This document shows, piece after piece, positions 28,961 through 61,974 of a stretch of 64,000 nt of DNA. Source of the stretch: Desulfofarcimen acetoxidans DSM 771 (GTDB lineage Bacteria; Bacillota; Desulfotomaculia; Desulfotomaculales; Desulfofarciminaceae); contig NC_013216.1 of NCBI RefSeq assembly GCF_000024205.1, positions 3,286,001 through 3,350,000 on the forward strand. The letters are read 5' to 3'. The notes under the pieces are model-generated. The model was given only the letters and a program-made list of their open reading frames with translations. It had not been told where the DNA came from and made no database searches. How positions within the stretch are numbered: position 1 is the stretch's first letter; every line of letters begins with the position of its first letter. A program made the translations under genes and the position numbers.

Positions 28961-30256
28961 TTAGAAGTAGCGAAAATAAATGTAAATATTGGATATAATT
29001 ATAGAAATTATCATTAGCGGAAATGATATCTTCATGAATTGTCTGAAGGATAGACTAATTCCGTTTTTTTCAGCAATTCCCGCGACAATAACATTCGCTG
29101 AAGCTCCGATTAGAGTTCCATTTCCTCCAAGACAAGCGCCAAGAGCAAGAGACCACCACACTGGTTCTAGATTTAAGCCAGACAGTCGCCCCATTTCCTG
29201 CAGCATAGGTATCATAGTGGCAACGAATGGAATATTGTCAATAAAAGCAGATGCGATTGCTGACACCCATAATATAAGCAGAGATGTTTTCATAATATTT
29301 CCATCTGTTATGGCTAGACTCCAACTTGCCAGCTCTCCAATTACTCCTGTTGCCTTTAAGCCGCCTACAAGAACAAATAATCCAGTGAAGAAGAAAATGG
29401 TTGGCCATTCAACATGCAGCAAAATATCTTCCGGTTCTTCACTACTGAGAATTATCAATAAGATGGCTCCAGATAGGGCAATTACGGCTGATTCAAGGTG
29501 AAAAACCCCATGCAATGAAAATCCTATAATCGTTAGACCGAGAACCCAAAGTGATTTTTTCAGCAATTGCCAGTCTTTTATTTCGTCTTTATAATTTAAT
29601 TTTAAAAGAGCTTTACGGCTTTTCTCATCGACTTGTAGATCCTTTCGATAGATGAAAAGCAATAAACCTATAGTAATCAATAAAATAAGAAATGCAACAG
29701 GGGCTAAATGAATTATAAAGTCGTTAAAACTAAGTCCCGCAATGCTACCAATCATAATATTCGGCGGGTCACCAATTAAGGTTGCTGTACCACCTATATT
29801 CGATGCAATAATTTCTGAAATCAAATAAGGGGTAGGATTAATTTGCAATTTATCGGTTAATGTAATTGTCACAGGAACAATTAACAAAACGGTTGTAACG
29901 TTATCTAGAAAAGCAGAAGCAAATGCGGTTATTATTGAGAGTAATGCGAGAAGTCGCAGCGGTTTACCTTTTGTGAGCAATGCGGCCCACACTGCAATGG
30001 CTTCAAAAACACCTGTTCGCCGAGTTATTGCAACTAATATCATCATGCCTATTAAAAGGCCAAGAGTATTAAAATCAATGTCTTCTTTAACAGCTGTTTC
30101 TTGACTTATAAATCCTAATAAAACCATGACTAATCCACCAGCCATAGCAATGACCATACGATGAATCTTTTCAGAAATTATTATAGCGTAGGTAATAATA
30201 AAAACTACAATAGAGCCCCAAAATGCTAAATCATTCAGAACAATAACCTCCCCCAT
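28961..30256 (-). CDS. ArsB/NhaD-family ion transporter
   Basis: About 430 residues with 11-12 hydrophobic helices. The two inverted halves each carry the family hallmark: SAFLDNVTTVLLIVP with IGGTATLIGDPPNIMIG in the first, ASAFIDNIPFVATMIPM with GACLGGNGTLIGASANV in the second. The family includes ArsB arsenite pumps, NhaD Na+/H+ antiporters and P-protein-like carriers. The substrate cannot be read from sequence. The frame opens at TTG 30265; I use the ATG at 30256, though the homology itself begins near residue 8. It is divergent from a closely similar paralogue at 30605. Confidence 0.85.
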   Translation of the reverse strand: MGEVIVLNDLAFWGSIVVFIITYAIIISEKIHRMVIAMAGGLVMVLLGFISQETAVKEDIDFNTLGLLIGMMILVAITRRTGVFEAIAVWAALLTKGKPLRLLALLSIITAFASAFLDNVTTVLLIVPVTITLTDKLQINPTPYLISEIIASNIGGTATLIGDPPNIMIGSIAGLSFNDFIIHLAPVAFLILLITIGLLLFIYRKDLQVDEKSRKALLKLNYKDEIKDWQLLKKSLWVLGLTIIGFSLHGVFHLESAVIALSGAILLIILSSEEPEDILLHVEWPTIFFFTGLFVLVGGLKATGVIGELASWSLAITDGNIMKTSLLILWVSAIASAFIDNIPFVATMIPMLQEMGRLSGLNLEPVWWSLALGACLGGNGTLIGASANVIVAGIAEKNGISLSFRQFMKISFPLMIISIIISNIYIYFRYF

Positions 30257-30324
30257 AACAGGCAAGAGGAATCCTTTTTACAGACTCCCCCCTGCAATAT
30301 TATCTATGTAATTTACCAAAACAC

Positions 30325-30604: not shown

Positions 30605-31888
30605 ATGGAACAGCAAGCAGCTTTAGCAGGTGGGATATTCTTGATTGCATACGCGTTAATCATAGCAGAAAAAATAAATCGTACGATTATTGCCATGATT
30701 GGTGGCCTTATGATGATTGCTTTAGGAATCGTTACCCAGGAATCTGCATTGCATCATATTGACTTTAATACATTAGGTTTGTTAGCAGGTATGATGATTA
30801 TTGTTGCAATAACCGGTAAAACAGGCATATTTTCCTATATAGCTATTGCCGCGGCAAAAAAAGCAAAAGGAGATCCAATCAAGATTTTAATTTATTTAGG
30901 CTTAATTACTGCGGTTTTTTCTGCTTTTTTAGATAATGTAACAACTGTGTTATTGATGGTCCCCATAACATTCACAATAACTCGCAAATTAAAAATTAAT
31001 CCGGAGCCATATTTAATAACGCAAATTTTAGCCTCAAACATAGGTGGAACATCCACACTTATCGGAGATCCTCCTAATATTATGATTGGAAGTGTGGTAC
31101 AAGAGCTATCATTTATGGATTTCATCAACAACTTAGCCCTAATATCAACTCTTATTTTACTTGTCACAATAGCAATACTTATTGTATTTTATCGCAAGAA
31201 AATTAGAACAACCGATGAATTAAAAGCCTCACTAATGATATTAGATGAAATTGAAGAGATCAAGGATAGGAAATTACTAAAAACTTGTTTTATTGTATTA
31301 GGATTGACGATTTTAGGCTTCTTTAGTCATCAAATTTTTGATTTAGAGTCTGCAACTATAGCTCTAAGTGGAGCCTTTATACTTTTATTATTTACGAGCA
31401 AGACTGATTATGATTTAGAACATGCTTTTTATAAAGTGGAATGGTCCACATTGTTTTTCTTTATCGGTCTATTCGTTCTTGTGGGTGGCCTTATTGATAC
31501 CGGTATTATTGGATACTTAGCACGGTTAGCGATTAAATTTACAGGAGGAGATACCTTAATTACATCTACACTCATTATATGGCTAAGCGCAGTTGCTTCT
31601 GCTTTTATAGATAATATCCCCTTTGTTGCAACAATGATTCCTTTAATTCAGGATATAGGGAGCAGAGGCGTTAGCAATATGGAAACACTTTGGTGGAGTT
31701 TATCATTAGGAGCTTGCCTAGGCGGTAATGGTAGTTTAATTGGTTCAAGTGCTAATCTAATTGTAGCAGGGCTGGCTGCACAACAGGGATGCAAAATCTC
31801 TTTTATGCGATTTTTATTAATCGGATTTCCGTTAATGGTAATTTCCATTATTATTGCAAACATATATATTTATTTACGATATTTTTAG
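30605..31888 (+). CDS. ArsB/NhaD-family ion transporter (paralogue)
   Basis: The 427-residue protein is a clear paralogue of the divergent neighbour, with the same paired motifs: SAFLDNVTTVLLMVP and IGGTSTLIGDPPNIMIG, then ASAFIDNIPFVATMIPL and GACLGGNGSLIGSSANL. It has 11-12 predicted membrane helices. The ATG follows GAGGGGGAATAAAA. Base composition is more AT-rich than the housekeeping block, as in the neighbour. Function is cation or anion exchange of unknown substrate. Confidence 0.86.
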   Translation: MEQQAALAGGIFLIAYALIIAEKINRTIIAMIGGLMMIALGIVTQESALHHIDFNTLGLLAGMMIIVAITGKTGIFSYIAIAAAKKAKGDPIKILIYLGLITAVFSAFLDNVTTVLLMVPITFTITRKLKINPEPYLITQILASNIGGTSTLIGDPPNIMIGSVVQELSFMDFINNLALISTLILLVTIAILIVFYRKKIRTTDELKASLMILDEIEEIKDRKLLKTCFIVLGLTILGFFSHQIFDLESATIALSGAFILLLFTSKTDYDLEHAFYKVEWSTLFFFIGLFVLVGGLIDTGIIGYLARLAIKFTGGDTLITSTLIIWLSAVASAFIDNIPFVATMIPLIQDIGSRGVSNMETLWWSLSLGACLGGNGSLIGSSANLIVAGLAAQQGCKISFMRFLLIGFPLMVISIIIANIYIYLRYF

Positions 31889-32128
31889 GTGTAGAGCCCA
31901 AGTGATATTTTAGAAAAACCCTTTCGTTGGACATACGAGGGAAAGTTGCTTAAAGCCTAAATGATTGGTTGTATACTTAAGCCTTATCGCGCTAGCACAG
32001 TGATTCATAAATATCATTACAATAAATCAAGATAAAAACTCTTTATTTACAGGTCATATAGGAATGGACAAACCTTATTGATATTAAGGAATCTTTCTAC
32101 TAGGGTGTCAAACTTGAGTTAAATACCT

Positions 32129-32170
32129 GCTCTTTGTAACTGTGATAGTTGCAAAGAGCATTTTTTGTTT
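32129..32170 (+). terminator. Intrinsic terminator upstream of collagen-like gene 1
   Basis: GCTCTTTGTAACT-GTGAT-AGTTGCAAAGAGC followed by ATTTTTTGTTTT. One mismatch (T/G) compared with the perfect copy at 41071. It separates the cassette from upstream transcription. Confidence 0.8.
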
Positions 32171-32294
32171 TATCTAGTATTGCTGTTCCTTTCTGCTTCT
32201 GGACAAGAATATTTCCTTTAAATGGTGTTTTTTGGTAACAAAATACAAGATATCTTAATATTATAGACTATTACCGAGGAAAGGTTTGATTTCT

Positions 32295-35200
32295 ATGTCC
32301 TCTATATTGATAATGCCAACTGGAGACACTTATATCAAAAAATCATCTCCAAATAGTAACTTTTCCAAAAAAAATGTCTTATTGCAGGTTTTGGGGGCTG
32401 TAAAAAAATATATACTAGTTTGCTAAAATTTGATATCCCTCGGATGCCTGCAGGGAGTGAGTTTATTCGTGCTTATTTAAGGCTTAATGTTGATGATACT
32501 GATCTAGCAGATGATGTTGAAATAAGGGTAAACAGGATACTATCTAGTTTTGATACGGATACAGTTACATGGGACACTTCTCCCTCATATATACCAACAT
32601 CAATTGTATTTAATGTTGACTGCCATCAAGTAGGCCGATTAGTCGAAGTAGACATAAGTGAATTGGTACGAGGCTGGATAGATCTGCAATTTCCTAATTA
32701 TGGTATTGCACTAACAGGAAAAGAAGATAATAAAGGTCTTGTAGCCTTTTCAAGTTCTAATGACGAAGCAGTGAGTAGACCACAACTAATTATAATATAC
32801 CGATTTCATATTGTTGGCCCCACAGGTCCGACTGGTCCGCATGGTAAAAAAGGAGCAACTGGCCCCACAGGCCCGACTGGCAAAACAGGTAAAACAGGAG
32901 CAACCGGTCCCACAGGCCCGACTGGTAAAACAGGTAAAACAGGAGCAACCGGTCCCACAGGTCCTACTGGCACTGCGGGTACAACAGGCGCAACCGGCCC
33001 CACGGGTCCGACCGGCACTGCTGGTGCAGATGGCGCAACCGGCCCCACAGGTCCCACTGGTACAGCAGGAACAGACGGTGCAACCGGCCCCACAGGTCCC
33101 ACTGGCACTGCTGGTGCAGATGGCACAACCGGTCCCACAGGCCCGACTGGCACTGCTGGTGCAGACGGCGCAACAGGCCCCACAGGCCCGACTGGCACTG
33201 CTGGTGCAGACGGCGCAACCGGCCCCACAGGTCCCACTGGTACTGCTGGTGCAGACGGTGCAACTGGTCCCACAGGCCCGACTGGCACTGCTGGTGCAGA
33301 CGGCGCAACCGGCCCCACAGGTCCGACTGGTACTGCTGGAGTAGACGGTGCAACTGGTCCCACAGGCCCGACTGGCACTGCTGGTGCAGACGGCGCAACC
33401 GGCCCCACAGGTCCGACTGGTACTGCTGGAGTAGACGGTGCAACCGGCCCCACAGGCCCGACTGGCACTGCTGGAGCAGACGGCGCAACCGGCCCCACAG
33501 GTCCCACTGGCACTGCTGGTACAGACGGCGCAACCGGTCCCACAGGTCCTACTGGCAGTGCAACAGGAGCAACTGGTCCCACAGGTCCGACTGGCATTGC
33601 TGGTGCAGACGGTACAACCGGCCCCACAGGTCCCACTGGTACTGCTGGTGCAGACGGTGCAACCGGTCCCACAGGCCCGACTGGCACTGCTGGTGCAGAC
33701 GGTACAACAGGCCCCACAGGTCCTACTGGCACTTCTGGTGCAGATGGTGCAACCGGTCCCACAGGTCCCACAGGTCCCACCGGCACTGCTGGTGCAGACG
33801 GCGCAACCGGCCCCACAGGCCCCACGGGCACTGCTGGAGTAGACGGTGCAACCGGCCCCACAGGTCCCACTGGCACTGCTGGTGCAGATGGCGCAACCGG
33901 TCCCACAGGTCCTACCGGTACTGCAGGAGCAGACGGTGCAACCGGCCCCACAGGCCCCACGGGCACTGCTGGAGTAGACGGTGCAACTGGTCCCACAGGC
34001 CCGACTGGCACTGCTGGTGCAAACGGCGCAACCGGCCCCACAGGTCCCACTGGCACTGCTGGTACAGATGGCGCAACTGGTCCCACAGGTCCCACTGGCA
34101 CTGCTGGTACAGATGGCGCAACTGGTCCCACAGGTCCTACCGGTACTGCAGGAGCAGACGGTGCAACCGGTCCCACAGGCCCGACTGGCACTGCTGGTGC
34201 AGACGGTACAACAGGCCCCACAGGTCCTACTGGCACTGCTGGTGCAGATGGTGCAACCGGTCCCACAGGTCCCACCGGCACTGCTGGTACAGATGGCGCA
34301 ACCGGTCCCACAGGTCCTACCGGTACTGCAGGAGTAGACGGTGCAACAGGCCCCACGGGTCCCACTGGCACTGCAGGTGCAGATGGTGCAACCGGCCCCA
34401 CAGGTCCCACGGGCACTGCTGGTACAGACGGCGCAACCGGCCCCACAGGTCCCACTGGCACTGCTGGTGCAGACGGCGCAACCGGTCCCACAGGTCCTAC
34501 TGGCAGTGCAACAGGAGCAACTGGTCCCACAGGTCCTACTGGTACTGCTGGTGCAGACGGTTCAACCGGCCCCACAGGTCCGACTGGTACTGCAGGAACA
34601 GACGGTGCAACCGGCCCCACAGGTCCCACTGGTACTGCTGGTGCAGACGGTGCAACTGGTCCCACAGGCCCGACTGGCACTGCTGGTGCAGACGGCGCAA
34701 CCGGTCCCACAGGTCCTACCGGTACTGCAGGAGTAGACGGTGCAACCGGCCCCACGGGTCCTACCGGCACTTCTGGTGCAGATGGTGCAACCGGCCCAAC
34801 AGGTCCCACGGGCACTGCTGGCACAGATGGCGCAACCGGTCCCACAGGTCCTACCGGTACTGCAGGAGTAGACGGCGCAACCGGCCCCACAGGCCCGACC
34901 GGCATTGCTGGTGCAGATGGTGCAACCGGCCCCACAGGTCCCACTGGTACTGCTGGTGCAGACGGTGCAACCGGTCCCACAGGTCCCACTGGTACTGCAG
35001 GAGCAGACGGTGCAACCGGCCCCACAGGTCCCACTGGCGCTGCTGGTGCAGATGGCGCAACCGGTCCCACAGGCCCGACCGGTACTGCAGGTGCAGATGG
35101 CGCAACCGGTCCCACGGGTCCCACTGGCACTGCTGGTGCAGACGGTGCAACCGGCCCCACAGGTCCAACTGGTACTACAGGAACAGACGGTGCAACCGGC

Positions 35201-38089
35201 CCCACAGGTCCTACCGGCACTGCGGGTGCAGACGGTGCAACCGGTCCCACAGGCCCGACTGGCACTGCTGGTACAGATGGCGCAACCGGCCCCACAGGTC
35301 CTACTGGCACTGCGGGAGTAGACGGTGCAACCGGCCCCACAGGTCCTACTGGCACTGCGGGAGTAGACGGTGCAACCGGTCCCACGGGTCCCACTGGCAC
35401 TGCTGGTGCAGACGGTGCAACCGGCCCCACAGGTCCGACTGGTACTGCAGGAACAGACGGTGCAACCGGCCCCACAGGTCCTACCGGCACTGCGGGTGCA
35501 GACGGTGCAACCGGTCCCACAGGCCCGACTGGCACTGCTGGTGCAGATGGCGCAACCGGCCCCACAGGTCCTACTGGCACTGCGGGAGTAGACGGTGCAA
35601 CCGGCCCCACAGGTCCTACTGGCACTGCGGGAGTAGACGGTGCAACCGGTCCCACGGGTCCCACTGGCACTGCTGGTGCAGACGGTGCAACCGGTCCCAC
35701 AGGTCCGACTGGTACTGCAGGTACAGACGGTGCAACCGGCCCCACGGGTCCCACTGGCACTGCTGGTGCAGATGGTGCAACCGGCCCCACAGGTCCCACT
35801 GGCACTGCTGGTGCAGACGGCGCAACCGGTCCCACAGGTCCGACTGGTACTGCAGGTACAGACGGTGCAACCGGTCCCACAGGTCCGACTGGTACTGCAG
35901 GTACAGACGGTGCAACCGGCCCCACGGGTCCCACTGGCACTGCTGGTGCAGATGGTGCAACCGGCCCCACAGGTCCTACCGGTACTGCTGGAGCAGATGG
36001 CGCAACCGGTCCCACGGGTCCCACTGGCACTGCTGGTGCAGACGGTGCAACCGGTCCCACAGGTCCGACTGGTACAGCAGGAACAGACGGTGCAACCGGC
36101 CCCACGGGTCCCACTGGCACTGCTGGTACAGACGGCGCAACCGGCCCCACAGGCCCAACCGGCACTGCGGGAGTAGACGGTGCAACTGGCCCCACGGGTC
36201 CTACCGGTACTGCAGGTACAGACGGTGCAACCGGTCCCACAGGTCCGACTGGTACTGCAGGTACAGACGGTGCAACCGGCCCCACGGGTCCCACTGGCAC
36301 TGCTGGTGCAGATGGTGCAACCGGCCCCACAGGTCCCACTGGCGCTGCTGGTGCAGATGGCGCAACCGGCCCCACAGGTCCCACTGGCGCTGCTGGTGCA
36401 GATGGCGCAACCGGTCCCACAGGTCCGACTGGTACAGCAGGAACAGACGGTGCAACCGGCCCCACGGGTCCCACTGGCACTGCTGGTACAGACGGCGCAA
36501 CCGGCCCCACAGGCCCAACCGGCACTGCGGGAGTAGACGGTGCAACTGGCCCCACGGGTCCTACCGGTACTGCAGGTACAGACGGTGCAACCGGTCCCAC
36601 AGGTCCGACTGGTACTGCAGGTACAGACGGTGCAACCGGCCCCACGGGTCCCACTGGCACTGCTGGTGCAGATGGTGCAACCGGCCCCACAGGTCCCACT
36701 GGCGCTGCTGGTGCAGATGGCGCAACCGGCCCCACAGGTCCCACTGGCGCTGCTGGTGCAGATGGCGCAACCGGTCCCACGGGTCCCACTGGCACTGCGG
36801 GTGCAGACGGTGCAACCGGTCCCACAGGTCCCACTGGTACAGCAGGAACAGACGGTGCAACCGGCCCCACGGGTCCCACTGGCACTGCTGGTACAGACGG
36901 CGCAACCGGCCCCACAGGCCCAACCGGCACTGCTGGTGCAGACGGTGCAACCGGTCCCACAGGCCCGACCGGCGCTGCTGGTGCAGACGGCGCAACCGGC
37001 CCCACAGGTCCTACTGGCACTGCGGGAGTAGACGGTGCAACTGGCCCCACGGGTCCTACCGGTACTGCCGGTGCAGACGGCGCAACCGGTCCCACGGGTC
37101 CGACTGGTACTGCAGGAACAGACGGCGCAACCGGCCCCACAGGTCCGACTGGCACTGCTGGTGCAGACGGTGCAACCGGTCCCACAGGTCCCACTGGTAC
37201 TGCAGGAGCAGACGGTGCAACCGGCCCCACAGGTCCCACTGGCGCTGCTGGTGCAGATGGCGCAACCGGTCCCACAGGCCCGACCGGCACTGCTGGTGCA
37301 GACGGCGCAACCGGCCCCACAGGCCCGACCGGCACTGCTGGTGCAGATGGTGCAACCGGTCCCACAGGCCCGACAGGTACTGCAGGAGCAGATGGCGCAA
37401 CCGGCCCCACAGGCCCAACTGGTACTGCAGGAGCAGATGGCGCAACCGGCCCCACAGGCCCAACTGGTACTGCAGGAGCAGATGGCGCAACCGGCCCCAC
37501 AGGTCCTACAGGCACTGCGGGTGCAGACGGTGCAACCGGCCCCACGGGTCCGACTGGTATTGCAGGTACTGGTGCTATAATTCCATTTGCATCTGGAGGT
37601 CCCATTGAAATGACTACCATTGCACTTGGTCTGGTTGGCACTACAAGTATCGTAGGATTTGGAAGTTCTGCTACCGGTATCACTATTTCTGGTGGAACAA
37701 TAGATCTTACAGGTGGAGTTGCAGGTCCGCTAATTAATTTCGCGTTTTCGGCTCCTCGGTCTGGAACCATAACATCAATTGCAGCATACTTTAGTACTAC
37801 TATATCGCTGAGTCTTCTTGGAACAACTATAACCATCACGGCACAATTGTATAGTTCTACAACACCTGATAATACTTTCAGCCCAGTTCCGGGTGCCGTT
37901 GTAACACTGGCTCCGTCCCTTACAGGTACAATTTCACTCGGTGACATCAGCCATGGTGTTACAACCGGATTGTCAATACCGGTAACACAGGAAACCCGTT
38001 TATTATTGGTATTTTCAGCAACAGCTACCGGTCTGGATCTTATTAATACTGTGACAGGATATGCAAGTGCAGGTGCAGCAATTACCTGA
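32295..38089 (+). CDS. Giant collagen-like spore-surface protein 1, frameshifted in a poly-A tract
   Basis: The ATG at 32295 (AGGAAAGG upstream) opens a DNRLRE-type beta-sandwich domain ([16 protein letters not shown]). At 32367-32374 the tract has eight A where paralogue 2 has nine, so this frame stops at 32424. The rest is open from about 32420 to 38089 (1,889 codons). It encodes the remaining DNRLRE domain ([20 protein letters not shown]), about 105 GPTGPTG-type 15-residue units, and a C-terminal domain like the BclB exosporium protein ([11 protein letters not shown] ... [14 protein letters not shown]). There is no signal peptide, as for other exosporium proteins. Thr at every GPT site could be O-glycosylated. 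The gene may be phase-variable or inactive. Confidence 0.85.
32815..37575 (+). repeat. 45-bp coding tandem repeat array (about 105 units)
   Basis: Each 45-bp unit encodes [15 protein letters not shown] with variants at a few positions (A/T/V before DG, T/A/I before AG). Two shorter interruptions ([11 protein letters not shown]) occur. A 360-bp block of eight units at 36061-36420 is repeated without change at 36421-36780. Glycine occurs at every third position throughout, so the sequence should form a collagen triple helix. Confidence 0.95.
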
Positions 38090-38126
38090 TCTAAGTAAAA
38101 AACTTTATGTGAAAATAAAACACCAA

Positions 38127-38162
38127 GGATCCGAATCCGGCATTGCTGCCGGGTTCGGATCC
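38127..38162 (+). terminator. Long hairpin after collagen-like gene 1
   Basis: A 15-bp stem (GGATCCGAATCCGGC with its complement, one G-T pair) with loop ATTGCT, 38 bp after the stop. There is no good T tract, so it may be a weak terminator or an mRNA stabiliser. An equivalent hairpin with different arm sequence is at 46585. Confidence 0.6.
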
Positions 38163-38230
38163 GAAATTTCATAGCTAACCATAAACAAGAAGGTAAATAT
38201 AATATGAATAAGATATAGAGGGATAATTCT

Positions 38231-39781
38231 ATGCCGTATAGCTCTTCTTCAGGAAAAGTGTGGTCAGAAAGAATAATTAAGCGTCTGATTGCGAGATGCA
38301 GCAATAACTCCATATTAGATGTTGGTGCGGGCGCAGGTATTTACTGTACCATGTTACGGCCCCAATTACCAACTACTGAATTCATCGGACTTGAGATATG
38401 GGAACCTTACATTGAAAAATACTCTCTTTCCAGCAAATATCATAATATTATTAAAGAGGATATTAGAGATTTTATTCCTCAAAAGACATATGGAATAACC
38501 CTTATGGGTGATATTCTCGAACATATGACTAAAGAAGAAGCAATAAAAGTTTACTATAAGTTATTGGAGTTTAGTGAGTATGTACTTATAAGCATACCGA
38601 TTAATTATTATCCTCAGGATGAATACATGGGAAATCCTTACGAAAAACATGTAAAAGATGACTGGAGCCACGATGAAGTCCTTTCCTCCTTTGACTGTAT
38701 AGCACTTTTTTATATTGAAAATGAGATTGGAGTATATATAGGCTATAATCCAAAACTACACACAAAATGGGATATACTGAATGCAAATAAAACCGCATAT
38801 GCAGTTTATGGAATTTACAAAAATGAAGAAAACTTTATAGAAAGGTTTTTAAATTCAGTAAAAGATGCTGATGAAATTGTCCTTTGTGACACAGGTTCAG
38901 ACGATAATACTAATACTATAATTAATTCTCTCAAAGAAAAAAATCCTGATATTAATCTTAAAACCTTTAAAATATTTGTTTCACCATGGAGATTTGATGA
39001 TGCACGCAATACTGCGTTGTCTCTGGTAAGTAAAAATATGGATATTTGTATATCCCTTGATATTGACGAATACTTAATGGAAAACTGGAGAGAGGTTTTA
39101 GATTTAAGATGGGATTTTAAATATACTCGATGTTATCATAAATTTAAAACAATTTGGGCTAATAATAGTTTCTCTGCGCATTGGCATGATAGAATACATG
39201 TAAGATGTGGTTATTGTTGGAAGCTGCCGGTGCATGAAATACTAGAGTATAAGTCTGAAGAAAAAATTTGCTGGATGGATGATTTCTGGGTATATCATCA
39301 ACCCGAAAATAAAAAATCAAGAGCATTTTATTTCCCATTGCTTGAACAATCGGTCAGGGAAAGACCTGATGTTTGGAAGACATGGAGTTTTTTGGCGAAT
39401 GAGTATATGATGGCAGGCAGATTTGAGGATGCCATGGAGGCTATTGATAAAGCATTTAAGTTAAAGAATTCCGACAAAGGCTATTTATATAAAATGAAAT
39501 ATAACCTGTATAAAAATCAAAACAAACAGGAACTGGCTATATTAAACCTAAACAATTATATTTTATGCATGCCGGGCAGACGGGAACCCTATTTTGAAAA
39601 AGCGAATTACCTACATCAGTTAGGAAGAAACGTAGAGTCTTATTTCACTTTGAAAGAGGCACAAAAACAATCTAATGAAATAACAGATTACCATTATATT
39701 CCGAATTGCTGGGGCAAAAATTTTGATGGATTCTTATCCAGGATATTTGAGCTCGCCCAAAAGGACGGATTGGCTATATGA
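38231..39781 (+). CDS. GT1: methyltransferase-glycosyltransferase family 2 fusion with TPR tail
   Basis: The 516-residue protein has three parts. Residues 1-180 resemble a class I SAM methyltransferase (SILDVGAGAGIYCTM, then GDILEHMTKEEA). Residues about 190-360 form a GT2-type glycosyltransferase (YGIYKNEENFIERFLNSVKD, CDTGSDDNT, then SLDIDEYL as the DxD-like metal motif). Residues about 370-500 look like TPR helices. The start is ATG after AGAGGGATAA. It overlaps GT2 by 4 bases. Position right after the collagen gene suggests it modifies that protein's glycans: sugar addition plus O-methylation. That role is inferred. Confidence 0.8.
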   Translation: MPYSSSSGKVWSERIIKRLIARCSNNSILDVGAGAGIYCTMLRPQLPTTEFIGLEIWEPYIEKYSLSSKYHNIIKEDIRDFIPQKTYGITLMGDILEHMTKEEAIKVYYKLLEFSEYVLISIPINYYPQDEYMGNPYEKHVKDDWSHDEVLSSFDCIALFYIENEIGVYIGYNPKLHTKWDILNANKTAYAVYGIYKNEENFIERFLNSVKDADEIVLCDTGSDDNTNTIINSLKEKNPDINLKTFKIFVSPWRFDDARNTALSLVSKNMDICISLDIDEYLMENWREVLDLRWDFKYTRCYHKFKTIWANNSFSAHWHDRIHVRCGYCWKLPVHEILEYKSEEKICWMDDFWVYHQPENKKSRAFYFPLLEQSVRERPDVWKTWSFLANEYMMAGRFEDAMEAIDKAFKLKNSDKGYLYKMKYNLYKNQNKQELAILNLNNYILCMPGRREPYFEKANYLHQLGRNVESYFTLKEAQKQSNEITDYHYIPNCWGKNFDGFLSRIFELAQKDGLAI

Positions 39782-40866
39782 ATAAATATAAGGTATGCGT
39801 CTATTCAATTTGTAAAAACGAAGAACAGTTTGTTGACAGGTGGATTGACTCCATGAATGAAGCAGATATGATCGCTGTTTGCGACACCGGTTCATCCGAC
39901 GGTACGGTAAAAAAGCTGAAATCCCGGGGTGCAGTAGTTAATAGTATAAATCTTGATCCATGGAGATTTGATGTCGCAAGAAATATATCACTGGCCTTTG
40001 TACCTTTCGATATGGATATCTGTGTCTGTACGGATCTGGATGAAGTTTTGGAAGCCGGATGGAGAGAAAGGCTGGAAAATGTGTGGACACCGGAAACTAC
40101 AAGGCTTAGATACATGTACACTTGGAAGTTTAACGAAGACGGCTCGCGCGGCGCTACTTACTGGTATGAAAAAATACATGGCAGACGAGGATATCGGTGG
40201 GTGCACCCAATTCATGAGATATTGCAATATTATGATGAAAAGCCGGAAATATATGCATATGCTCCCGCAATTCATCTAAATCATTTCCCTGATCCGGCTA
40301 AATCCAGGAGCCAGTATCTGTCTTTGCTTGAACTTTCCAGAAACGAAAATCCCAATGATAGCAGCACAGTATTCTGGCTTGGCAGAGAATATATGTTCTA
40401 TGGGCAATATGACAAGTGTATAAAAACATTGAAGGAACACCTTTCATTATCCAGTGCCGTATGGGATCAGGAACGCTGCGCTTCAATGAGATATATAGCA
40501 AGGTCATATAACACAAAAGGAGATTTGGCTGAAGCAAAAAAATGGCTTTACAAAGCCATTGCAGAGTGTCCGACAGTTAGGGAACCCTATGTTGATATGG
40601 CACGTTTGGGCTATGAATTGAAGGATTGGCCGCTTGTATATCTTATGCTTGAAGAGACACTAAAAATAAAAGATAAACCCTTTTCATACCTTATTGAAGA
40701 ATCTAGTTGGGATAATACTATATACGATCTGGGCTCAATTGCATGCTATTGGATCGGGATGTTTGAAAAAGCCTATGAGCTTGCAAGAATTGCTTCAGGT
40801 ATGAATCCCCATGACGAAAGGCTTGAGCATAATCTTAAAATTATTAAAGAAAGAATAACGAAATAA
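39778..40866 (+). CDS. GT2: family 2 glycosyltransferase with TPR tail
   Basis: The 362-residue protein begins KVCVYSICKNEEQFVDRW, then DTGSSDGT and CTDLDEVLEAGW, the nucleotide-sugar and DxD-like motifs of GT2 enzymes. The second half (from about residue 200) is helical and TPR-like (EAKKWLYKAIAECPTVREPY). It overlaps GT1 by ATGA, so the two are coupled. A truncated copy of its 3' end occurs at 46691. Likely adds sugars to the neighbouring Thr-rich collagen-like protein. Confidence 0.82.
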   Translation: MNKYKVCVYSICKNEEQFVDRWIDSMNEADMIAVCDTGSSDGTVKKLKSRGAVVNSINLDPWRFDVARNISLAFVPFDMDICVCTDLDEVLEAGWRERLENVWTPETTRLRYMYTWKFNEDGSRGATYWYEKIHGRRGYRWVHPIHEILQYYDEKPEIYAYAPAIHLNHFPDPAKSRSQYLSLLELSRNENPNDSSTVFWLGREYMFYGQYDKCIKTLKEHLSLSSAVWDQERCASMRYIARSYNTKGDLAEAKKWLYKAIAECPTVREPYVDMARLGYELKDWPLVYLMLEETLKIKDKPFSYLIEESSWDNTIYDLGSIACYWIGMFEKAYELARIASGMNPHDERLEHNLKIIKERITK

Positions 40867-40907
40867 AAATTGTTTATTAATTATTCAATTTGGAAGTGGG
40901 ATGACCA

Positions 40908-41015
40908 GTGAATAAGTTAAAGGTATGCGTGTATGCAACATGTAAAAATGAGTAGAAGTTTATAGATAGATGGATAGATTTAATGCGTGAAGCCGACATA
41001 ATCATTGTAACCGAT
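40908..41015 (+). pseudogene. GT3 5' fragment in unit 1
   Basis: A GTG start and MNKLKVCVYATCKNE match the start of the intact GT3 at 47129, but the next codon is TAG where GT3 has GAG. After 108 bp the sequence breaks at ACCGAT and continues as the start of unit 2. It marks the duplication junction and cannot make a protein. Confidence 0.85.
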
Positions 41016-41070
41016 TGGTTGTATACTTAAGCCTTGTCGCACTAGGATGTCAAACTTGAGTTAAACACCT

Positions 41071-41112
41071 GCTCTTTGTAACTGTGATAGTTACAAAGAG
41101 CATTTTTTGTTT
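41071..41112 (+). terminator. Intrinsic terminator upstream of collagen-like gene 2
   Basis: Perfect 13-bp stem GCTCTTTGTAACT/AGTTACAAAGAGC with 5-nt loop followed by ATTTTTTGTTTT. Confidence 0.88.
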
Positions 41113-41236
41113 TATCTCGTATTGCTGTTCCTTTCTGCTTCTGGACAAGAATACTTCCCTTAAATGGTGTTTTTTGGTAACAAAATATAAGACATCTTAA
41201 TATTATAGACTATTACCGAGGAAAGGTTTGATTTCT

Positions 41237-44200
41237 ATGTCCTCTATATTGATAATGCCAACTGGAGACACTTATATTAAAAAATCATCTCCAAATAGTA
41301 ACTTTTCCAAAAAAAAATGTCTTATTGCAGGTTTCGGGGGCTGCAAAAAAATATATACTAGTTTGATAAAATTTGACATTCCCCAGATTCCTGCAGGGAG
41401 TGAGTTTATTCGTGCTTATTTAAGGCTTAATGTTGATGATACTGATCTAGCAGATAATGTTGAAATAAAGGTAAACAGGATATTATCTAGTTTTGATACG
41501 GATACAGTTACATGGGACACTTCTCCCTCATATATACCAACATCAATTGTATTTAATGTTGACTGCCATCAAATAGGCCGATTAGTCGAAGTAAACATAA
41601 GTGAATTGGTACGAGGCTGGATAGATCTGCAATTTCCCAATTATGGTATTGCACTAACAGGAAAAGAGGGTAATAAAGGTCTTGTAGCCTTTTCAAGTTC
41701 TAATGACGAGGCAATGAGTAGACCACAACTAATTATAATATACCGATTTAATATTGTTGGCCCCACAGGTCCGACTGGTCCGCATGGTAAAACAGGTAAA
41801 ACCGGTAAAACCGGTCCCACAGGCCCGACTGGCAAAACAGGTAAAACAGGAGCAACCGGTCCCACAGGCGCAACTGGTCCTACAGGCACTGGCGCAACCG
41901 GCCCCACAGGTCCAACTGGCAGTGCAACAGGAGCAACTGGCCCCACGGGTCCTACAGGCACTGCAGGCACAACAGGTGCAACCGGTCCCACAGGTCCAAC
42001 TGGTATAGCAGGTACAAGCGGCGCAACCGGCCCCACTGGTCCGACCGGTACTGCGGGTGCAGACGGTACAACCGGCCCCACAGGCCCGACTGGCATTGCG
42101 GGTGCAAATGGCGCAACCGGCCCCACAGGCCCGACAGGTACTGCGGGTGCAAATGGCGCAACCGGCCCCACAGGTCCTACGGGTACTGCGGGTGCAGATG
42201 GCGCAATCGGCCCTACAGGTCCCACGGGCACTGGTGCAACCGGTCCCACAGGTCCTACAGGTACCGCAGGAACAGACGGTGCAACCGGCCCCACAGGTCC
42301 CACCGGTACTGCAGGAACAGACGGTGCAACCGGCCCCACAGGCCCGACAGGTACTGCGGGTGCAAATGGCGCAACCGGTCCCACTGGTACAGATGGCGCA
42401 ACCGGTCCCACAGGTCCCACCGGTACTGCAGGAGTAGACGGTGCAACAGGCCCCACAGGTCCTACTGGCACTTCTGGTGCAGATGGTGCAACCGGTCCCA
42501 CAGGTCCCACCGGCACTTCTGGTGCAGATGGCACAACTGGTCCCACAGGTCCTACCGGTACTGCAGGAGTAGACGGTGCAACCGGCCCCACGGGTCCTAC
42601 CGGCACTTCTGGTTCAGATGGTGCAACCGGCCCCACAGGCCCGACAGGTACTGCGGGTGCAGACGGAGCAACCGGCCCCACTGGTCCTACCGGTACTGCA
42701 GGAGCAGACGGTGCAACCGGTCCCACTGGCCCGACCGGTACTGCAGGAGCAGACGGCGCAACCGGTCCCACGGGCCCGACCGGTACTGCAGGAGCAGACG
42801 GCGCAACCGGTCCCACGGGTCCGACTGGCACTGCAGGAGCAGACGGTGCAACCGGCCCCACAGGCCCGACTGGTACTGCAGGTGCAGATGGCGCAACCGG
42901 CCCCACAGGTCCCACTGGCACTGCAGGTGCAGATGGCGCAACCGGCCCCACAGGCCCGACAGGTACTGCGGGTGCAGACGGCGCAACCGGCCCAACTGGT
43001 CCGACCGGTACTGCGGGTGCAGATGGTGCAACCGGTCCCACAGGTCCTACCGGTACTGCAGGAGTAGACGGTGCAACAGGCCCCACGGGTCCTACCGGCA
43101 CTTCTGGTTCAGATGGTGCAACCGGCCCTACAGGTCCCACGGGCACTGCGGGAGTAGACGGTGCAACCGGTCCCACAGGTCCTACTGGTACCACAGGAAC
43201 AGACGGTGCAACCGGCCCCACAGGCCCGACTGGCACTGCTGCTGCAGACGGCGCAACTGGTCCCACAGGCCCGACAGGTACTGCGGGTGCAGACGGCGCA
43301 ACCGGCCCAACTGGTCCGACCGGCACTGCAGGAGCAGACGGTGCAACCGGCCCCACAGGTCCTACTGGTACTGCGGGTGCAGATGGCGCAACCGGTCCCA
43401 CAGGTCCCACCGGTACTGCAGGAGTAGACGGTGCAACAGGCCCCACAGGCCCGACAGGTACTGCGGGTGCAGACGGCGCAACCGGCCCAACTGGTCCGAC
43501 CGGTACTGCGGGTGCAGATGGTGCAACCGGCCCAACTGGTCCGACCGGCACTGCAGGAGCAGACGGTGCAACCGGCCCCACAGGTCCTACTGGTACTGCG
43601 GGTGCAGATGGCGCAACCGGCCCTACAGGTCCCACGGGCACTGCGGGAGTAGACGGTGCAACCGGCCCCACAGGTCCTACAGGTACCGCAGGAACAGACG
43701 GTGCAACCGGCCCCACAGGCCCGACTGGCACTGCTGGTGCAGACGGCGCAACCGGTCCCACAGGTCCGACTGGCACTGCTGGTACAGATGGCGCAACCGG
43801 TCCCACAGGTCCTACCGGTACTGCAGGAGTAGACGGTGCAACAGGCCCCACGGGTCCGACTGGCACTGCTGGTGCAGATGGTGCAACCGGTCCCACAGGT
43901 CCCACTGGCACTGCTGGTACAGATGGCGCAACCGGTCCCACAGGTCCCACCGGCACTGCTGGTACAAATGGCGCAACTGGTCCCACAGGTCCTACTGGTA
44001 CTGCTGGTGCAGACGGCACAACCGGTCCCACAGGTCCCACCGGCACTGCTGGTACAAATGGCGCAACTGGTCCCACAGGTCCTACAGGTACTGCAGGAGT
44101 AGACGGTGCAACCGGCCCCACGGGTCCGACTGGCACTTCTGGTGCAGACGGCGCAACCGGCCCCACAGGTCCTACTGGTACTGCTGGAACAAACGGTGCA

Positions 44201-45970
44201 ACCGGCCCCACAGGTCCTACTGGTACTGCTGGTGCAGACGGCGCAACCGGCCCCACAGGTCCAACTGGTACAGCAGGAACAGACGGTGCAACCGGCCCCA
44301 CAGGTCCGACTGGTACTGCAGGAGCAGACGGTGCAACCGGTCCCACAGGTCCAACTGGCACTGCTGGTGCAGACGGTGCAACCGGTCCCACAGGTCCTAC
44401 TGGTACTGCTGGTGCAGACGGTGCAACCGGCCCCACAGGCCCGACTGGCACTGCTGGTGCAGACGGCGCAACCGGCCCCACAGGTCCTACTGGTACTGCT
44501 GGTGCAGACGGTGCAACCGGTCCCACAGGTCCTACTGGTACTGCTGGTGCAGACGGTGCAACCGGTGCAACCGGTCCCACTGGCCCAACTGGTACTGCAG
44601 GTGCAGATGGTGCAACCGGCCCCACAGGTCCTACTGGTACTGCTGGTGCAGACGGTGCAACCGGCCCCACAGGTCCTACTGGCACTGCTGGTGCAGATGG
44701 CGCAACCGGCCCCACAGGTCCTACTGGCACTGCTGGTGCAGATGGCGCAACCGGCCCCACAGGTCCGACCGGCACTGCAGGTGTAGACGGCGCAACCGGC
44801 CCCACTGGTCCGACCGGCACTGCTGGTGCAGACGGCGCAACCGGCCCCACAGGTCCTACTGGTACTGCTGGTGCAGACGGCGCAACCGGCCCCACAGGTC
44901 CGACTGGCACTGCAGGTGCAGACGGCGCAACCGGTCCCACTGGCCCAACTGGTACAGCAGGTGTAGACGGTGCAACCGGCCCCACAGGCCCGACAGGTAC
45001 TGCAGGTGCAGACGGTACAACCGGCCCCACAGGTCCGACCGGCACTGCTGGTGCAGATGGCGCAACCGGCCCCACTGGCCCGACTGGCACTGCTGGTGCA
45101 GACGGTGCAACCGGCCCCACAGGTCCGACTGGTACTGCTGGTGTAGACGGCGCAACCGGCCCCACGGGTCCGACCGGCACTGCTGGTGCAGACGGCGCAA
45201 CCGGCCCCACTGGCCCGACCGGCACTGCTGGTGCAGATGGCGCAACCGGCCCCACAGGCCCGACCGGTACTGCAGGAGCAGACGGCGCAACCGGCCCCAC
45301 AGGTCCAACTGGCACTGCTGGTGCAGATGGTACAACCGGTCCCACTGGCCCAACTGGTACAACAGGTGTAGACGGTGCAACCGGCCCCACAGGTCCGACT
45401 GGCACTGCAGGTGCAGATGGTGCAACCGGTCCCACAGGTCCGACTGGCACTGCGGGTGCAGACGGCGCAACTGGCCCCACAGGTCCGACTGGTACTGCAG
45501 GTGCAGACGGTGCAACCGGTCCCACAGGTCCGACTGGCGCAACTGGGGAAGTCGTTTTGGCTTTTGGATCTTTAAGAGGAAACAGTGTAGAGACACCTGG
45601 TGCAACATTCACACCCGTACCATTTAATATTGTTGGACCTTTATCAGATACCATCACGGTTAGTCTATCGGGTAATGAATTAGTAGTAGGAGAAAACGGA
45701 ATTTATCAAATAACGATATCTATTAATGCTGAAGCCACTGTTAATCCAGATCCAGATCAACCATATTTAAATGCTATTATCACTGTCAATGGTGCACCTA
45801 TTTTTGGCGATACTACCACTTTTTTCAAGATATCTAATAGAAGTAGTTCAACGTTTGCCGTTCAATCATCCTTAACAGCAGGAGATGAAGTAGGAGTAAG
45901 TATTATTACAGATTTTCCTGCTTTGGGTTATATGAATCGCTCTTTAACTATTGTTCAATTAAGTAATTAA
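41237..45970 (+). CDS. Giant collagen-like spore-surface protein 2 (BclA-type C-terminal domain)
   Basis: Intact frame of 1,577 codons from the ATG at 41237 (AGGAAAGG upstream; a TTG at 41228 is too close to it). Residues 1-170 are the DNRLRE-type domain, with nine A at 41309-41317 keeping the frame. Then come KTGKTG spacers and about 84 [15 protein letters not shown]-type units. The last 145 residues ([17 protein letters not shown] ... SLTIVQLSN) form a jelly-roll domain like the BclA C-terminus, which trimerises and faces outward on spores. This domain differs from that of gene 1. No signal peptide; expression in the mother cell during sporulation is inferred from the family. Confidence 0.9.
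41757..45545 (+). repeat. 45-bp coding tandem repeat array (about 84 units)
   Basis: Same 15-residue collagen unit as in gene 1 but fewer copies and more irregular units near the start ([25 protein letters not shown]). The [13 protein letters not shown] insertion near 44560 is a 9-bp partial unit. Confidence 0.95.
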
Positions 45971-46008
45971 ATGAGCCTATTTTGCAATTTCCTATTATAA
46001 ACACCCCC

Positions 46009-46545
46009 ACAGGTACAGCAGGTACTGGTGCTATAATTCCATTTGCATCCGGAGGTCCCATTGTAATGACTACCATTGCACTTGGGCTGGTTGGTACTGC
46101 AAGTATCGTGGGATTTGTAAGTTCTGCTACCGGCATCACTATTTCTGGTGAAACAATAGATCTTACGGGTGGAGTTACAGGTCCGTTAATTAATTTTGCC
46201 TTTTCGGCTCCTCGGTCTGGAACCATAACATCAATTACAGCATACTTTAGTAATACTATATTGCTGAGTCTTACTGGAACAACTATAACCATCACGGCAC
46301 AATTGTATAGTTCTACAACACCTAATAATACTTTCAGCCCAGTTCCGGGTGCTGTTGTAACATTGGCTCCGGCCCTTACGGGTACAATTTCACTAGGTAG
46401 CACCAGCCATAGTATTACAACCGAATTGTCAATACCGATAACACAGGAAACCCGTTTATTATTGGTATTTTCAGCAACAGCTACCGGTCTGGATCTTATT
46501 AATACTGTGACAGAATAGGCAAGTGCAGGTGCAGCAATTACCTGA
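46009..46545 (+). pseudogene. Orphaned BclB-type C-terminal domain
   Basis: From [17 protein letters not shown] onward this matches the C-terminal 175 residues of collagen-like protein 1, but it has no collagen region or start. A TAG at 46516 replaces the TAT of gene 1 before the shared TGA at 46543. It directly follows the stop of collagen-like gene 2, so it looks like the gene's former 3' end left behind after a new C-terminal domain was inserted. Confidence 0.8.
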
Positions 46546-46584
46546 TCTAAGTAAAGAACTTTATGTGAAAACAAAACACCAAAA

Positions 46585-46616
46585 ATCCGGATCCGGCATT
46601 GCTGCCGGATCCGGAT
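46585..46616 (+). terminator. Long hairpin after the orphaned domain
   Basis: A perfect 13-bp stem (ATCCGGATCCGGC and its complement) with loop ATTGCT, matching the 38127 hairpin in position and loop but with changed, still paired, arms. Confidence 0.6.
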
Positions 46617-46690
46617 CCTAAATTTTACAGCTAATCATAAACAAGAAGATAAGCATAATATGAATAAGGTATAGAGGGATAATTCTATCG

Positions 46691-47087
46691 GGAACGCTGC
46701 GCTTCAATGAGATATATAACAAGGTCATATAACACAAAAAGAGATTTGGCTGAAACAAAAAAATGGCTTTACAAAGCCATTGCAGAGTGTCCGACAGTTA
46801 GGGAACCCTATGTTGATATGGCACGTTTGGGCTATGAATTGAAGGATTGGCTGCTTGTATATCTTATGCTTGAAGAGACACTAAAAATAAAGGATGAACC
46901 CTTTTCCTACCTTGTTGAAGAATCGAGTTGGGATAATACTATATACGATCTGGGCTCAATTGCATGCTATTGGATCGGGATGTTTGAAAAAGCCTATGAA
47001 CTTGCAAGAATTGCTTCAGGTATGAATCCCCATGACGAAAGGCTTGAGCATAATCTTAAAATTATTAAAGAAAGAATAACGAAATAA
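46691..47087 (+). pseudogene. 3' remnant of GT2 in unit 2
   Basis: The sequence equals the last 397 bp of GT2 (40470-40866) with few changes: MRYITRSYNTKRDLAETKKW through DERLEHNLKIIKERITK. It joins abruptly to the leader that precedes GT1 in unit 1. It lacks the catalytic GT2 domain. An ATG could still express 126 residues of TPR-like sequence, but activity is unlikely. Confidence 0.8.
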
Positions 47088-47128
47088 GGATTGTTTATTA
47101 ATTATTCAATTTGGAAGTGGGATGACCA

Positions 47129-48226
47129 GTGAATAAGTTAAAAGTATGTGTGTATGCAATATGTAAAAATGAGGAGAAGTTTGTAGATAGATGGGTAGAT
47201 TCAATGTGTGAAGCCGACATAATCATTGTAACCGATACCGGCTCTACAGATAACACTGTGGAAAAGCTCAGGCAAAGAGGCGTTACTGTTTACATTAATG
47301 TTATTAAACCATGGAGATTTGATAAAGCAAGAAATTCATGCCTTGAGCAAATCCCCGGAGATGTGGATATATGTGTCAGTACGGATCTTGATGAAGTCTT
47401 TGAGGCTGGCTGGCGCGAAAACCTTGAAAAATCATGGATTGAAGGAGCCACAAGGGCGAATTATTACTATGCATGGAGCTTCTGCCCTGATGGTACACCC
47501 GGTGTAACATTTCATTACGACAGGATACATTCCAGGCAAGGATATAAATGGGTTAATCCAGTCCACGAATGCCTTAGCTTTATTGGCGATGGGGTTGAAA
47601 AATTTGTCTGGTGCCCTTATGTACGGCTTCTCCATTATCCCGATAGCAGCAAGGACAGAAGCTCCTATCTTACCTTGCTTGAGTTGGCTGTGGCAGAGAG
47701 GCCGGAAGATCCCAGAAATTATCATTATCTGGGTAGGGAGTATATGTTTGCCGGCATGTGGAATGAATGTATTGAAAACCTAAAAAAACACCTTTCACTT
47801 CCGAATTCATGTTGGAAAGAGGAAAGAAGTGCTTCTATGAGATTTATTGCACGCGCATTCAAAGCACAAGTCAATTACATAGAAGCAAAAAGCTGGCTTT
47901 ATAAAGCAATAGCTGAAACTCCTTATTTAAGAGAGCCTTATGTTGAAATGGCTAAGCTTATGTATGAAGATAAGGATTGGGCCGGAATTTACCATATGGT
48001 AATGGAGGCCTTGAAAATTAAGGAGCGATCAACCTATATAAATGATGCTTGGTGCTGGGACTATACTATATATGACCTGGGAGCCCTGGCTTGCTATTAT
48101 TTGGGTTTGACTGGTGCATCGTTGGAATATGCACAAATTGCGCTGGAAATGAGTCCGAATGATGAAAGACTTAAAAGTAATTATGAAATAATAAAGAATT
48201 TAAAAAACCAGAAAAAGCGGGAGTGA
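47129..48226 (+). CDS. GT3: family 2 glycosyltransferase with TPR tail
   Basis: The 365-residue protein is a paralogue of GT2: VCVYAICKNEEKFVDRWVDS, TDTGSTDNT, CVSTDLDEVFEAGW (DxD-like), then a helical TPR-like half. It starts with GTG 42 bp after the GT2 remnant. Its first 108 bp are duplicated as the fragment at 40908. It is the last intact gene of the cassette. Probable role: glycosylation of the collagen-like filaments. Confidence 0.82.
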   Translation: MNKLKVCVYAICKNEEKFVDRWVDSMCEADIIIVTDTGSTDNTVEKLRQRGVTVYINVIKPWRFDKARNSCLEQIPGDVDICVSTDLDEVFEAGWRENLEKSWIEGATRANYYYAWSFCPDGTPGVTFHYDRIHSRQGYKWVNPVHECLSFIGDGVEKFVWCPYVRLLHYPDSSKDRSSYLTLLELAVAERPEDPRNYHYLGREYMFAGMWNECIENLKKHLSLPNSCWKEERSASMRFIARAFKAQVNYIEAKSWLYKAIAETPYLREPYVEMAKLMYEDKDWAGIYHMVMEALKIKERSTYINDAWCWDYTIYDLGALACYYLGLTGASLEYAQIALEMSPNDERLKSNYEIIKNLKNQKKRE

Positions 48227-61702: not shown

Positions 61703-61947
61703 TTATTTGCCCGTTATAATAGCTGGACTTATGCTTATTCACCCATATAAGCTGACTATTAGCGTAAGATACAAGTTATTTTATGCGATATTTTCGATTC
61801 CTGGCTGATATATTTTAAAACTCGTTTTAACTGGTCGGTCTCACACAAGCTCAAGCACTAAGTCAACCTCAATTTATTTGTCCGATATAATAGGCTGGAC
61901 TTATGCTTTATACCCTTATAGGCGGCTGTTAGCATAGGATACAAGTC
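61703..61947. repeat. Two diverged direct repeats with conserved hairpin
   Basis: A ~75-bp unit at 61703-61777 recurs at 61871-61947: TATAATAGCTGGACTTATGC and TATAATAGGCTGGACTTATG, with AGCGTAAGATACAAG and AGCATAGGATACAAG at the other end. CTTATGCT pairs with AGCGTAAG or AGCATAGG in either copy. No coding content. Confidence 0.6.
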
Positions 61948-61974
61948 TTTATACGAAAAAAATATTAGCATACC

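Follow-up and report, generated by a model that had tools for sequence, protein, structure and literature searches.

Tandem duplication and probable displacement of an end domain in a collagen-glycosyltransferase locus of Desulfofarcimen acetoxidans

BclA and BclB proper are collagen-like exosporium glycoproteins with a short exosporium-targeting N-terminal leader. In the Rhs and CdiA systems, a displaced former C-terminal module is left downstream as an orphan. Collagen-like spore proteins are known to be modular, and no report of exchange or displacement of their outward-facing ends (tips) was found in the openly available literature that was searched. BclA proteins are described as modular (PMC13188886). 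F-BclA forms the tip fibrillum of the F-ENA appendages, with a collagen stalk and a C1q-like tip facing outward on the spore, and a search with the F-BclA N-domain is reported to have given no proteins with another C-terminal domain (PMC11952670). In Clostridioides difficile, SgtA, which combines GT-A and TPR parts and is encoded directly upstream of bclA3, transfers N-acetylglucosamine onto Thr of collagen-repeat peptides (PMC7157674). Here, we analyze a stretch of 64,000 nucleotides of Desulfofarcimen acetoxidans DSM 771 (contig NC_013216.1, positions 3,286,001 to 3,350,000 of the forward strand; hereafter the window), in which two tandem units (unit 1 and unit 2) carry two collagen-like genes (collagen 1 and collagen 2) and genes for three glycosyltransferases (GT1, GT2, and GT3).

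The history that we favor, with a probability of about 0.7, comprises a tandem duplication, a deletion of glycosyltransferase (GT) genes, and the displacement of an end domain (tip) on a collagen stalk, leaving two stalks of the same type, different tips, and one GT set. The parts belong to kinds already described, namely collagen proteins of BclB and C1q type and GTs resembling SgtA. A duplication followed only by the loss of trans-acting genes made redundant is in itself ordinary. On this reading, one locus would hold the state before the change (unit 1), the state after it (unit 2), and also the end domain that was given up, and relatives date the steps.

A tandem duplication with its joint inside GT3

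Comparison of the window with itself by BLAST paired positions 31963-31995 with 41013-41045 (94% identity), 32099-36612 with 41041-45537 (86%, in repeats), 37550-38232 with 46006-46688 (92%), and 40466-41015 with 46687-47236 (96%), the spacing between the duplicated units being 9,050 bp (Table 1). An earlier note on this DNA had claimed that the sequence at 31963 recurs at 41013, 9,050 bp away and joined within GT3, and had proposed a self-comparison as a check; both the duplicated blocks and the joints were recovered. The note had also attributed the joint to non-homologous or microhomology joining. GAT is all that the two original sites, left and right, have in common at the joint, and they are 16% identical across the 80 ungapped bp around it, indicating that no long repeat mediated the duplication, as the note had it. 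A shared run of at least 3 bases at the joint has a chance probability of approximately 0.054, and GAT is therefore weak evidence for microhomology, which is compatible with the joint but unproven. Replacement of the collagen end domain, the frameshift in collagen 1, the TAG in the GT3 stump, and the leader difference, all considered below, were absent from the earlier note.

The non-repeat parts of the units are 92-97% identical in DNA, i.e. they differ by about 3-8%, and the units are further distinguished by three rearrangements, namely the 108-bp leader difference, a collagen gene that ends differently, and the removal of approximately 2.2 kb by deletion. Such divergence combined with three structural changes makes a simple assembly repeat unlikely. 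The genome consists of one contig of 4.55 Mb, and a search of the whole genome located the duplicated copies at this place only. The tandem duplication is confirmed as real. No tRNA genes were found within the window.

Table 1. Features of the duplicated locus, in positions of the window.
Feature	Position	Strand	Description	Score or basis
Unit 1	31963-41015	+	Whole duplicated segment	Self-alignment
Leader stretch	31991-32103	+	Flanked by two copies of CTAG; unit 2 lacks 108 bp	
Collagen 1	32295-38089	+	ATG at 32295; 105 copies of a 45-bp repeat	
Old tip	37565-38089	+	Intact BclB-type domain (TIGR03721) at the end of collagen 1	212.4 bits (cut-off 93.15)
GT1	38231-39781	+	Methyltransferase-like, GT2-family, and TPR-like parts; unit 1 only	
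GT2	39778-40866	+	Intact in unit 1	
GT3 stump	40908-41015	+	108 bp, with TAG	
Duplication joint	41013-41015	+	GAT common to both original sites	
Unit 2	41013-47236	+	Second copy; GT3 continues uniquely beyond, to 48226	Self-alignment
Collagen 2	41237-45970	+	N-domain of DNRLRE/CBM96 type, 45-bp repeat in 83 copies, new tip	
New tip	45554-45970	+	BclA_C-like, putative C1q/TNF fold, end of collagen 2	
Orphan old tip	46006-46545	+	TIGR03721 match at 46021-46539; TAG at 46516-46518	184.7 bits, 1 TAG
Deletion joint	46687-46688	+	2-bp overlap AT; GT1 and 5' part of GT2 removed	
GT2 stump	46707-47087	+	Last 126 codons	
GT3	47129-48226	+	Intact, only whole copy	

Two tips and an orphan on one type of stalk

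Each unit opens with a collagen gene encoding a DNRLRE/CBM96 N-domain (NF033679, 104.8 bits; PF24517, expectation value (E) of 3.3e-17) followed by a Gly-X-Y repeat array. The ratio of nonsynonymous to synonymous substitution rates (dN/dS) between the two N-domains is 0.37. The 45-bp repeat, present in 105.4 copies in unit 1 and 83.5 copies in unit 2, encodes 15-residue units rich in Gly-Pro-Thr (GPT), with 213 and 169 GPT triplets, respectively. Both collagen starts are preceded by a hairpin that resembles a terminator and has a T run (32128-32158 and 41070-41100), and the one in unit 2 would terminate transcripts coming from unit 1.

The collagens differ in a tract of A residues near their start, which has 8 A in collagen 1 (32367-32374) and 9 A in collagen 2 (41309-41317). 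The 8-A tract shifts the frame of collagen 1, with a stop at 32424, and the frame is open again from 32420 to 38089. This difference is a frameshift, a sequencing error, or a slippage switch. Since no excess decay is seen behind the 8-A tract, the shift is recent, erroneous, or tolerated through slippage.

The genes also differ at their 3' end. Collagen 1 ends in the BclB-type old tip, and collagen 2 in a different domain, the new tip, which is followed in unit 2 by a stop, a spacer of about 35 bp, and an orphan copy of the old tip that retains a few collagen codons in front. The orphan is 89.1% identical in amino acid sequence to the tip of collagen 1. Polarization of the 19 amino acid differences with relatives assigned 14 to unit 2 and 3 to unit 1 as derived, with 2 ambiguous, and the dN/dS of the orphan was 0.61 versus 0.37 for the N-domain, as expected if it decays behind the new tip. 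A structure model of the old tip (predicted local distance difference test (pLDDT) of 68) gave no clear match in the PDB, the best being a virus capsid protein (E of 1.4e-5, TM score of 0.39).

The new tip scored 31.7 bits against PF18573 (BclA_C), under the cut-off of 38. Its structure model, of low confidence (mean pLDDT of 63), matches the C1q/TNF fold: the best Foldseek match was ExsFA (7r1m, E of 2.2e-7), comparison with BclA (3twi) gave a Z score of 12.2 for 121 aligned residues with a root-mean-square deviation of 2.9, the best score of that comparison was for EDA-A1 (Z of 13.6), and the C1q/TNF folds matched include ExsFA, BclA, and F-BclA. The rest of the genome yielded no other copy of the new tip.

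A relative from another family of the same order (G024) has two collagen genes, A and B, followed by one GT1-GT2-GT3 set, with 73%, 74%, and 78% amino acid identity to GT1, GT2, and GT3 of the window, respectively. A comparison with relatives had been proposed together with the self-comparison, and this single set supports an ancestor with one set of GTs. The N-domains of the G024 collagens are of the same type as those of the window; they and the start of the leader are mutually 94% identical in DNA. Collagen B carries a tip different from the old tip, and behind it lies a broken remnant of the old tip (local E of 1e-26 and 6e-7; profile E of 5.9e-15) that extends to the old tip's own C-terminus and is followed by a hairpin and then by GT1. 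At the same place before GT1, the old tip of unit 1 is still intact. The intact tip of unit 1, the orphan of unit 2, and the G024 remnant point to the old tip as the ancestral occupant of this place. The orphan of G024 is more degraded than that of the window, and both carry stops. Since the units are 92-97% identical to each other and only 73-74% identical in the GTs to G024, the two losses of the old tip are separate events. A second possible remnant, behind collagen A of G024, comprises 20 residues with a local E of 4e-4; it was considered weak and was not counted. No convincing GT remnants were found behind collagen A.

The new tip was detected in two of the 113 genomes of the order (the window's own and G050) and in four of the 398 genomes drawn from the phylum. 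Its DNA is 87.3% and 88.1% identical to that of the homologs in G050 and G446, which belong to two other families, with synonymous divergence (dS) of 0.25 and 0.29, respectively. In the same genome pairs, the proportion of synonymous differences (pS) in rpoB is 0.80 (G050) and 0.82 (G446), i.e. saturated, and when rpoB was compared with that of G050 in 102 segments of 138 codons each, the lowest pS was 0.63, compared to 0.21 for the new tip. Because the tip diverges so little at synonymous sites while those of rpoB are saturated, it has probably moved horizontally among at least some lineages, and more or less alone: GT3, GT1, and the TIGR03721 tip are only 57-60% identical in DNA between the window and G050, the stalk of G050 differs from that of the window, and both the stalk and the N-domain of G446 differ, the latter being unrelated.

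Glycosyltransferase genes, stumps, and deletion

GT2 and GT3 (362 and 365 amino acids) are 54% identical over their length. GT3 matched PF00535 (34.7 bits, cut-off 23.3) and, below the cut-off, the TPR-type PF23558, and GT2 matched TPR_14 (29.3 bits, cut-off 23.5) and, below the cut-off, PF00535 (18.8 bits). GT1 is missing from unit 2, and each GT is whole exactly once across the two units. The GT3 stump of unit 1 has 8 mismatches with the whole GT3 across 108 bp and a dN/dS of 0.68 versus 0.37 for the N-domain. Its 6 amino acid differences comprise 4 derived in unit 1, none derived in unit 2, and 2 ambiguous, and the 6 differences in the GT2 stump comprise 5 derived in unit 2, none derived in unit 1, and 1 ambiguous. 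The GT stumps thus decay in the expected opposite directions, the reversal between the GT3 stump and the pooled orphan tip and GT2 stump being supported by Fisher's test on the derived differences, with the ambiguous ones excluded (p = 0.0023).

Among 80 loci containing relatives of GT3 (51-60% identity), 53 had a collagen gene on the same strand within 4 kb, 23 had none, and in 4 the upstream DNA was too short to tell. The methyltransferase part of GT1 was present in none of these 80 loci, placing GT1 outside the wider association of GTs with collagens. In two loci of family f8 (L128 in G052 and L129 in G050), trios resembling GT1-GT2-GT3 stand beside genes of sugar-nucleotide type and other glycosyltransferase-like frames, gene types being judged from the starts of the sequences; no collagen was found within the stretch examined.

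A strong hairpin separates collagen and GT1 on the forward strand of unit 1 (38127-38162), with counterparts in unit 2 (46585-46616) and in G024 (L126:17116-17147). The energies are -31.7, -27.8, and -24.7 kcal/mol, respectively, with paired changes between the units. The hairpin is possibly an attenuator setting the GT level below that of collagen.

Alternative histories and relation to described systems

The favored history can be set out as follows. A locus for a giant collagen-like glycoprotein, probably of the spore surface, and three GTs was duplicated in tandem through a joint inside GT3. Unit 2 lost GT1 and the greater part of GT2 through one later deletion, presumably because GTs can act in trans and one copy of each was enough. 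A horizontally shared C1q/TNF tip with its own stop would have been placed between the repeat array of unit 2 and the old tip, which decays as an orphan behind it, the duplicated stalk giving freedom to alter the tip in one copy. GT2 and GT3 would, by analogy with SgtA, act in trans and attach sugar to the Thr residues of GPT triplets. The stalks would form fibers of the spore surface, with trimeric tips facing outward. The arrangement of the new tip is observed, and insertion is the route that we infer.

Several observations weigh against this history. The insertion itself is unseen, and an ancestor with two collagens that underwent a deletion would look alike. No match to the DNA of G050 extends past the first few bases beyond the new tip's stop. 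In G467, which has a similar repeat type, the tip is 89% identical in amino acid sequence but 79% in DNA, with a dS of 1.4, indicating that conservation accounts for part of the tip identity. The fold assignment depends on a low-confidence model. With respect to decay, the sole stop of the orphan is near its end, the GT2 stump has a dN/dS of 0.37, which is not raised, and the outgroups used to polarize this stump include paralogues. Collagen 1 is out of frame near its start, and the 9 amino acid differences behind its A tract comprise 1 derived in unit 1, 3 derived in unit 2, and 5 ambiguous. Finally, displaced old tips were recognized at only two of 62 collagen loci (the window and G024); when these loci were scanned with 49 tips, 7 matches fell outside collagen frames. 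None turned up at 22 additional TIGR03721 loci, for which approximately 1.5 kb of flanking DNA was covered.

Candidates rejected as displaced tips were L021:7900-8781 and L144:859-1842, which are free-standing two-tip proteins without collagen (a tip-like domain comes first, followed by a second C-terminal module), L053 and L068, which have frame breaks or short frames, and L006, where, judged by coordinates only, the locus's own tip extends 9 bases past the frame end. The 22 TIGR03721 loci came from the 398 genomes of the phylum. In 20 of them, the domain shares its frame with collagen repeats; of the other two, L180 is a piece at a contig edge, and L161 has no in-frame collagen repeats within the available flank.

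The most serious competitor, which we nevertheless consider improbable, replaces insertion by deletion. The ancestral cassette would have contained two tandem collagens with similar N-domains, the first with a C1q/TNF tip and the second with a BclB-type tip. The orphan of unit 2 would then be what remained after a deletion that began behind the stop of the first gene and reached into the last repeat of the second, and unit 1 would have lost the first gene or fused both via their repeats, so that the new tip was exposed rather than inserted. G024 has such a pair of genes, with N-domains and leader start 94% identical, and the few collagen codons in front of the orphan agree with such a deletion. 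However, this route requires one more gene as well as a further loss, in unit 1, and no trace of a second N-domain is present between 45970 and 46021. That the tip is related horizontally to copies in other families favors neither route.

The earlier note had proposed that the two units decayed complementarily. Part of this description stands: unit 2 is without GT1 and most of GT2, the units jointly hold one whole copy of each GT, the GT3 stump of unit 1 is exactly 108 bp, and the stumps decay oppositely, as in an operon-level duplication-degeneration-complementation. However, this stump is the breakpoint itself rather than the result of a later loss. Since the duplicated segment has its right end within GT3, the GT3 of unit 1 was truncated from birth and there was always one whole GT3, so that the losses did not reciprocally follow a complete duplication. 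A single deletion explains the rest, and the complementary pattern requires no coincidence because one copy of each GT must remain. Full duplication followed by complementary decay is thus largely refuted, and we regard it as unlikely.

We hold it equally unlikely that the whole locus is decaying and that neither collagen matters, the structure being neutral wreckage in repeat-rich DNA. This would accommodate the frameshift of collagen 1 at the 8-A tract and the several rearrangements, but GT1, GT2, and GT3 are open, the N-domain dN/dS is 0.37, and there is no excess decay behind the tract. The repeat frames are also free of stops over 1,580 and 1,889 codons, although they may stay open by their make-up: the antisense frames are likewise open (1,835 and 1,338 codons), and open repeat frames are therefore poor evidence of selection. 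Misassembly or collapse of near-identical repeats into a false tandem copy can practically be set aside. Assembly of long repeat arrays is difficult, but outside the repeats the units differ by 3-8%, each has rearrangements of its own, one carries a foreign tip, and the genome is a single contig.

To return to the insertion of a tip into a duplicated locus, a broader proposal is that surface collagen fibers of spore formers evolve by horizontal swaps of C1q/TNF tips, each arriving with its stop codon where the repeat array ends, with tandem duplication preserving the old fiber and old tips persisting downstream as datable fossils. Adhesive tips, in place of toxic ones, would then be traded in an exchange economy like that of Rhs. 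This generalization is tentative, and we would sooner doubt it than rely on it. If tips do travel alone while stalk, anchor, and GTs stay, the binding specificity of the spore surface could change in one step, and displaced remnants would provide a search signal for tip changes.

Two side observations concern the window outside the duplicated locus. A head-to-head pair of diverged, inverted genes for CitMHS-family transporters (28961-30265, reverse strand; 30605-31888, forward strand), 65-72% identical in DNA in pieces, adjoins it. A direct repeat of about 85 bp, with 80% identity, is located at 61703-61788 and 61874-61956.

The collagens of the window resemble the BclA- and BclB-type exosporium glycoproteins of Bacillus and BclA1-3 of C. 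difficile in having a GPT-rich Gly-X-Y stalk and a BclB-type or C1q/TNF-type tip. They differ in their N-domain, which is of DNRLRE/CBM96 type in place of the exosporium leader, and are thus not BclA or BclB proper. They also differ in that two stalks share N-domain and repeat type and carry different tips, one accompanied by an old-tip orphan. Compared with F-BclA, the tip changes here while the N-domain stays (PMC11952670). GT2 and GT3 resemble SgtA in size (358 amino acids for SgtA), in their matches to the GT2 family and TPR types, and in adjoining GPT-rich collagens (PMC7157674). The locus differs from that of SgtA in having three GTs, one of them with a methyltransferase-like domain, located behind the collagen gene, and sugar transfer is predicted here by analogy. 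The closest parallel to the displaced tip is provided by the Rhs and CdiA orphans: a long conserved body, an exchangeable C-terminal module, and the former module downstream on the same strand. In contrast to those orphans, there is neither a toxin nor an immunity gene, the place of the latter being taken by GT1 in G024 and by the deletion scar of GT1 in unit 2; the orphans carry stops and decay, and the tips are presumably structural or adhesive. The displaced-tip arrangement therefore resembles Rhs and CdiA in part and is not a member of these systems.

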